64,000 bases of DNA, from the NCBI GenBank assembly GCA_017847835.1, contig JAGASH010000009.1:62001-126000 (forward strand), in the 5' to 3' direction. The translations under genes and the position numbers were made by a program. Of the stretch, positions 4,706 to 57,063 are shown one piece after another. The notes under the pieces are model-generated. The model was not told the origin of the DNA, made no database searches, and saw only the letters and a program-made list of their open reading frames with translations. Position 1 is the stretch's first letter. The number at the start of each line of letters is the position of its first letter. This DNA is from Oscillospiraceae bacterium (GTDB lineage Bacteria; Bacillota; Clostridia; Oscillospirales; Ruminococcaceae).

Positions 4706-4736
4706 TCAAGTCACTCCTTTCGCTGTGTTTTTTCTG

Positions 4737-49932: not shown

Positions 49933-50033
49933 TGTAAAACACCTCGATTTGAAAAAAATCTGAATAATAAAAACCCGAGCGTCAATAATAATTCCGACAG
50001 AAATATCTGGGATATCGAAAGGAGTTTTGAATT

Positions 50034-56288: not shown

Positions 56289-56414
56289 AAAAAAACGGGG
56301 TTCTTCAGAAAGAACCCTTAAATCAAATGATAAAATTATGTGTAGAACAAAAGAAAGGAGACAACTAAACAAACAAATGACATGGAAGTTTATCACAACC
56401 AAAATCTTTTGTTT
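56289..56414 (-). ncRNA. candidate small RNA with anti-Shine-Dalgarno loop
   Basis: A complete non-coding transcription unit on the minus strand. From a strong promoter (56421-56449) the predicted transcript of about 126 nt ends in a perfect 8-bp hairpin, GGGTTCTT/AAGAACCC (56298-56317), with seven U (56289-56295). Near the 5' end AATCAAA (56412-56418 region) and TGATAAA can pair with the adjoining TTTATCA-TTTGATT just before the terminator, so both ends close a large loop. In that loop is CTCCTTTC (56353-56360), complementary to the Shine-Dalgarno core GAAAGGAG. No reading frame with an RBS is present. I recognise no described family. Confidence 0.65.
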
Positions 56415-56420
56415 GATTAA

Positions 56421-56449
56421 ATTATACAGCACAACGTGATAAAAGTCAA
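56421..56449 (-). promoter_or_regulatory. promoter of the candidate small RNA
   Basis: On the minus strand, TTGACT (56444-56449) and TATAAT (56421-56426) with a 17-base spacer. Predicted start near 56414. Confidence 0.75.
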
Positions 56450-56643: not shown

Positions 56644-56672
56644 TTGACAAAACAATTTGCGTGTGGTATAAT
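56644..56672 (+). promoter_or_regulatory. promoter of rplU-prp-rpmA
   Basis: Perfect TTGACA (56644-56649), 17-base spacer, TATAAT (56667-56672). Confidence 0.92.
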
Positions 56673-56757: not shown

Positions 56758-57063
56758 ATGTACGCAGTAATCGAAACAGGCGGAAAGCAGTATCAGGTTA
56801 AAGAGGGCGACACCATCTTTATCGAGAAGCTGGACGCAGAGGGCGAAATCACCTTCGACAAGGTTGTTATGGTTGGCGGAGAAGGCTCCGTAAAGGTTGG
56901 CGCTCCCTATGTTGACGGCGCTTCCGTAAAGGCAAAGCTCGTGAAGAACGGCAAGGCAAAGAAAATCACCGTTTTCACCTACAAGCCCAAGAAGCACATC
57001 AAGAAAAAGCAGGGCCACAGACAGCCGTACAGCCAGGTTCAGATTGAGGCTATCAACGCGTAA
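56758..57063 (+). CDS. rplU: 50S ribosomal protein L21
   Basis: 101 residues starting [25 protein letters not shown], the invariant L21 N-terminus; [22 protein letters not shown] is the rRNA-binding C-terminus. Of two nearby ATGs, 56758 is in frame, with GAGG 11 bases upstream. First gene of the three-gene unit; its stop overlaps the prp start by one base. Confidence 0.97.

Follow-up and report, generated by a model that had tools for sequence, protein, structure and literature searches.

Between rplU (L21) and a gene for an M16-type peptidase, the window (the whole 64-kb stretch of DNA analyzed here) carries a free-standing gene which, to judge from its sequence, is an unannotated small RNA (sRNA) gene, with its own promoter, a predicted noncoding RNA of ~120 nt and an intrinsic terminator. 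The features are:

56421..56449, minus strand: sigma-70 type promoter, TTGACT-17-TATAAT, matching 11 of 12 consensus positions
56289..56417, minus strand: small RNA, predicted at 126–129 nt from the promoter–terminator interval, with its 5′ end probably at ~56414–56417
56370..56415, minus strand: 5′ hairpin, predicted outer stem of CAAACAAA (56415–56408) with TTTGTTTG (56377–56370)
56336..56369, minus strand: near-invariant, predicted single-stranded core TTTAGTTGTCTCCTTTCTTTTGTTCTACACATAA, marked by conservation and by presence of its complement in mRNA leaders
56289..56317, minus strand: intrinsic terminator, GGGTTCTT-TCTG-AAGAACCC CG T7, with an 8-bp stem at 56317–56298
56758..57063, plus strand: rplU (L21), divergent neighbor of the sRNA (context only)
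56644–56672: promoter of rplU itself, 12/12 by consensus score
54926..56203, minus strand: M16-type peptidase gene, 3′ of the sRNA and on the same strand, named from its translation (context only)
56266–56238, minus strand: promoter-like site of the M16-type peptidase gene

The locus thus has what is generally expected of an sRNA gene: its own promoter, a noncoding product of 50–300 nt and a Rho-independent terminator. The initial annotation had described the promoter, an interval of ~126 nt from there to the U-tract, and an 8-bp terminator hairpin with seven U, and all of these hold, the stem being followed by CG and then by seven T. It had also seen no reading frame with a ribosome-binding site (RBS), and this extends to the homologous RNAs described below, only 7 of 148 of which combine any RBS with a reading frame 8 or more codons long. 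That count argues against a transcript encoding a small peptide, as do the identity of the core at all codon positions and the free change of flank lengths. Open frames do run through the T-rich core, but we find a peptide-coding role scarcely credible.

The locus is kept in 39 of the 43 genomes of the genus. The genus alignment shows conserved −35 and −10 hexamers and a single invariant block, with spacer and terminator stem varying freely, a pattern that fixed the strand and argued against a protein. Searching with a 27-nt core gave at least 120 matches in named genomes, including Ruminococcus flavefaciens, R. albus and many Oscillospiraceae. Because this search required identity, it was repeated on 297 sampled genomes of the taxonomic family, permitting up to three mismatches over 23 nt. 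The sRNA was present in 119 of these, across 28 genera (our own tally; an automatic tally of 32 genera takes in genomes with other matches only), and the 23-nt core, UCUCCUUUCUUUUGUUCUACACA, was identical in 113 of the 119. Sampled genomes from other families of the order gave only two weak matches, with three mismatches each. Promoters matched 11–12 of 12 consensus positions in 146 of 148 complete homologous loci, the spacer was 17 bp in 146 of 148, and the predicted RNAs had a median length of 121 nt. Terminator stem sequences have been replaced many times among the homologs, with the hairpin and U-tract kept. By these counts, conservation of the locus exceeds chance. A multi-target seed does not usually need as many as 23 frozen nucleotides, hinting at some other constraint on the core, such as contact with a protein or the ribosome.

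The divergent neighbor is a pyruvate:ferredoxin-oxidoreductase-like gene in 39 of the 120 loci listed (Ruminococcus-type genomes, e.g. L062), and an M16-type gene lies downstream in 15 of the 120, both genes being named by sequence recognition. The former neighborhood is a different place from the one beside rplU in the window. At G638:C2:161252-161521, two exact 23-nt cores lie 247 bases apart, as if the sRNA gene had been duplicated in tandem.

The modeled architecture of the RNA is a single-stranded core flanked by a 5′ hairpin (CAAACAAA/UUUGUUUG here) and the terminator. The initial annotation had closed the RNA into one large loop by pairing AATCAAA with TTTGATT and TGATAAA with TTTATCA. 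These 7-base segments are complementary as letters, but the large loop does not form in prediction, its closing helices having ensemble pairing probabilities below 0.01. For the CAAACAAA/TTTGTTTG hairpin the probability is 0.91–0.99 when the RNA is started a few bases further upstream. The exact 5′ end matters, since with a start at 56414 the minimum free energy structure has ACAAAAGA, at the 5′ end, paired to a portion of the core instead. TGATAAA, one arm of the proposed closing helices, varies even within the genus.

Among homologs, the sequence of the 5′ hairpin turns over and its pairing stays. Compared with dinucleotide shuffles, the 5′ segments of 29 divergent homologs are better folders, with a mean z of −3.05 and 27 of the 29 below −1; most of the core is predicted to be unpaired (mean 0.76). 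Covariation is seen in Ruminococcus-type RNAs, for example AGTG...CACT versus GATG...CATC. When arms were compared, 90% of cells paired, versus 77% after re-dealing (maximum 83%), a contrast somewhat inflated because the comparison picks the best 5′ offset. RNAalifold gave no structure on a MAFFT alignment of the 29 divergent RNAs because the variable hairpins fail to align; single-sequence folding and the arm comparison were used in its place.

The core also occurs in phages. An 18-nt core match was found in 34 viral contigs and a 19-nt match in 27; some are intragenic and chance-like (L172/L174, L179, L194), and the phage GenBank records and plasmids searched gave no match. The core lies in sense orientation 60–95 nt before a tRNA gene, mostly tRNA-Met(CAU), in ~23 contigs, among which are several near-duplicates. 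Distinct rumen phage contexts in which a sense-oriented copy of the core comes with a 5′ hairpin number at least 12, and usually a tRNA gene lies just downstream. As a rule the 5′ hairpin is strong and unrelated in sequence to that of the host, and a second hairpin follows the core. Upstream genes match a phage transcriptional-regulator family, and HNH, terminase or portal genes lie downstream. In L181 and L183 the core is at a different place and has its own promoter-like sites. The sequences suggest that phages acquired the core repeatedly. Although the phages differ, the 5′ hairpins of L184, L185, L189, L190 and L198–L202 share CTTTCGGGAG...CTCCCTTGCCTCCGCC, a motif that may form an independent structured RNA element; these hairpins had no Rfam match in L184 and L198.

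Small RNA genes are often used by integrases, and the core is identical in phage and host, as would be expected if the phages had taken the core from the host gene as an attachment site, with no phage sRNA. This seems to us very unlikely. In the neighborhoods examined, phage copies have a late regulator on one side and tRNA or terminase genes on the other, and no integrase was recognized among the genes scanned around them. A separate 5′ hairpin accompanies each phage copy, promoter-like sites accompany several, and the host genes are intact, with promoter and terminator present.

The core TTTAGTTGTCTCCTTTCTTTTGTTCTACACATAA includes CTCCTTTC, the anti-Shine-Dalgarno (anti-SD) segment, and the 23-nt TCTCCTTTCTTTTGTTCTACACA (56361–56339). 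By sequence and position, the RNA has an accessible segment complementary to mRNAs encoded elsewhere. The initial annotation had proposed CUCCUUUC as the pairing unit; its anti-SD segment is accessible, but the conserved unit is much longer, at ~23 nt. CTCCTTTC is, as had been noted, complementary to GAAAGGAG, which does precede the mazF-like gene, at 50017–50024, and which is found also at 4721 (minus strand), ahead of another ORF. The proposal of the mazF-like gene as a notable target did not survive, because a match of eight nucleotides is ordinary and pairing of the core to the 58 ORF leaders of the window showed no excess over shuffled cores. CUCCUUUCU is presumably identical to the 16S tail; a search of these assemblies for the 3′ end of 16S came up empty.

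Outside the sRNA locus, a single long complement occurs in the genome of the window: an 18-nt perfect match in L002, a few bases ahead of a small ORF's SD and start. A related site lies ahead of a similar gene in L239 (G018). In both L002 (1400–1600; G000:C16) and L239, the small-ORF promoter is followed by CGAAC...GTTCG, by eye resembling a LexA-type box. Across the genus, seven sites outside sRNA loci had 0–1 mismatch (one contig-end sRNA copy left out), versus none for the reversed control. In the taxonomic family, an extra near-complement was found in 14 of 119 sRNA-bearing genomes versus 4 of 178 without the sRNA (Fisher, p = 0.001), and sites divided 32:21 between genomes with and without the sRNA, versus 17:30 for an SD-preserving scramble of the core (p = 0.018); the site counts behind both values were read off tables by eye, and the Fisher values overstate independence because the genomes are related.

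Near-complements close to genes often lie 5–11 nt before the ATG, on the mRNA strand, with the SD paired to CUCCUUU, and the strongest complementarity usually runs upstream past the SD. Such sites precede the starts of genes for MatE (L288), GntR-type regulators (L296, L357, L287), an ABC ATPase (L352), a sigma factor (L354) and a member of the penicillinase repressor family (L355), as well as the orthologous pair in L289 and L290 and that in L347 and L348. Several other candidate sites are inside ORFs or have no nearby start.

Long complements are scarce (~0.3 per genome under the search criteria applied). Targets, if there are any, would therefore mostly use short pairing, indistinguishable from ordinary SD complementarity. 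This rarity would suit a core whose chief role is to bind a protein or the ribosome (as an anti-SD mimic on the ribosome, say, or as a site for a CU-binding chaperone), with leader pairing secondary. The near-freezing of 23 nt over 28 genera would suit it as well, as would the phages' retention of the core with replacement of both flanking hairpins. However, near-complements that track the presence of the sRNA, and that are often at translation starts on the mRNA strand, are unexpected for a pure protein site, and we rate this explanation as unlikely, though worth keeping in view.

Other near-complements are found in 3′ UTRs, next to terminators. An HPr-like gene has a near-complement between its stop codon and terminator in L240, L241, L242 and L246 (G019, G020, G024 and G018), and an ANTAR-type regulator gene has similar 3′-end sites in two genomes (L248 and L249); both genes are named by sequence recognition. 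In L285 (G162:C15) and L286 (G323:C2), three tandem near-complements ~80 nt apart stand ahead of one ORF, which begins MKTKAKAALI... or MRTKAKAALI... Such 3′-UTR complements and tandem leader arrays may act as sponges. The nearest known logic is that of RosA, which titrates RoxS in B. subtilis (PMC8216469).

These same sites could be read as the main business of the sRNA, controlling one or a few RNAs (the HPr-like 3′ UTR, the triple-site leader) with the other matches incidental. What favors this is their recurrence, at one and the same HPr-like gene in four genomes, at two ANTAR-regulator genes, and as triple arrays in two genomes. Yet none is present in all sRNA-bearing genomes, so a single target fails to explain the conservation, and the genome of the window has only its one long complement. 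We consider so narrow a role quite improbable.

The reading that we favor, and hold to be probable, is a family of trans-acting sRNAs in Ruminococcus and related genera that repress translation by anti-SD pairing. The RNA would be transcribed from the strong sigma-70-type promoter, and the 5′ hairpin and terminator hairpin would present a single-stranded core of 23–34 nt. The CUCCUUU part would pair with the SD and the CUUUUGUUCUACACA part with the leader just upstream, so that ribosome binding would be blocked on mRNAs with UGUGUAGAACAAAAGAAAGGAG-like leaders; some transcripts, with the complement located in a 3′ UTR or in an array of tandem leader sites, might serve as sponges. In several phages the same core would belong to an RNA of the phage itself, presumably acting on the same host targets to the benefit of the phage. 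A trans-acting regulator of translation had been proposed in the initial annotation, and the comparative evidence favors its trans pairing with mRNA leaders, shorn of the large-loop fold and the mazF-like target.

We put forward a wider interpretation as a serious possibility, while stopping short of belief in it: the near-frozen core common to bacteria and phages would make a global anti-SD regulator with built-in sponges, and the late-region copies beside tRNA genes in different rumen phages would seize or amplify the host regulon, a viral mimicry of a host sRNA.

With this locus, a major lineage of the gut and rumen, that of Ruminococcus albus, R. flavefaciens and their relatives, gains a putative sRNA family that Rfam 15 lacks, with candidate targets and sponges named. 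For a base-pairing sRNA, a core unchanged at 23 nt across 28 genera is unusually well conserved, which raises the question of what holds it. Whether viruses commandeer the regulon of a host sRNA can be tested directly with the phage copies.

The initial annotation had recognized no known family, and Rfam 15 at gathering threshold agrees: neither the sRNA of the window nor that of any of 13 loci, nine from hosts and four from phages, matched a family. A permissive Rfam scan gave chance-level matches only, and the sRNA was not found described in the open-license papers searched. The csRNAs of streptococci (CiaRH regulon), proposed to block translation initiation, likewise have two hairpins around an unpaired SD-complementary region, the arrangement predicted here (PMC3091779). 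Their nonamer UCCUAAA[A/C] is in 0 of 148 RNAs here (PMC3091779). There are several csRNAs per genome, whereas the present sRNA is typically in one copy and in a different taxon. The csRNA-type CiaR direct repeat, in its generally known form, was found in 1 of 148 promoters, allowing one mismatch per half. RsaE/RoxS of Bacilli and Staphylococci is likewise a highly conserved Gram-positive sRNA with a pyrimidine-rich anti-SD region, and has multiple targets and is countered by the sponge RNAs RosA and RsaI (PMC8216469). Unlike RsaE/RoxS, with its C-rich UCCC-type motifs, our sRNA has no UCCC in its core and no Rfam match, and is limited to one Clostridia family among those sampled. In LhrC of Listeria, unpaired CU-rich segments pair with SD regions. 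The sRNA here shares neither sequence family nor Rfam match with LhrC. LhrC is a multicopy family of Listeria with several CU-rich motifs (PMC4132741); here there is usually one copy per genome, with one long invariant core. By analogy, our sRNA would work like csRNA, RsaE/RoxS and LhrC, yet it lacks the defining features tested for each and most likely belongs to none of them. On the viral side, DicF, AgvB and AsxR are likewise phage small RNAs that enter a host sRNA network; AgvB does so by imitating the targets of a host sRNA, whereas the phages here have, in sense orientation, the core of the host sRNA itself (PMC12197685, PMC4104026).
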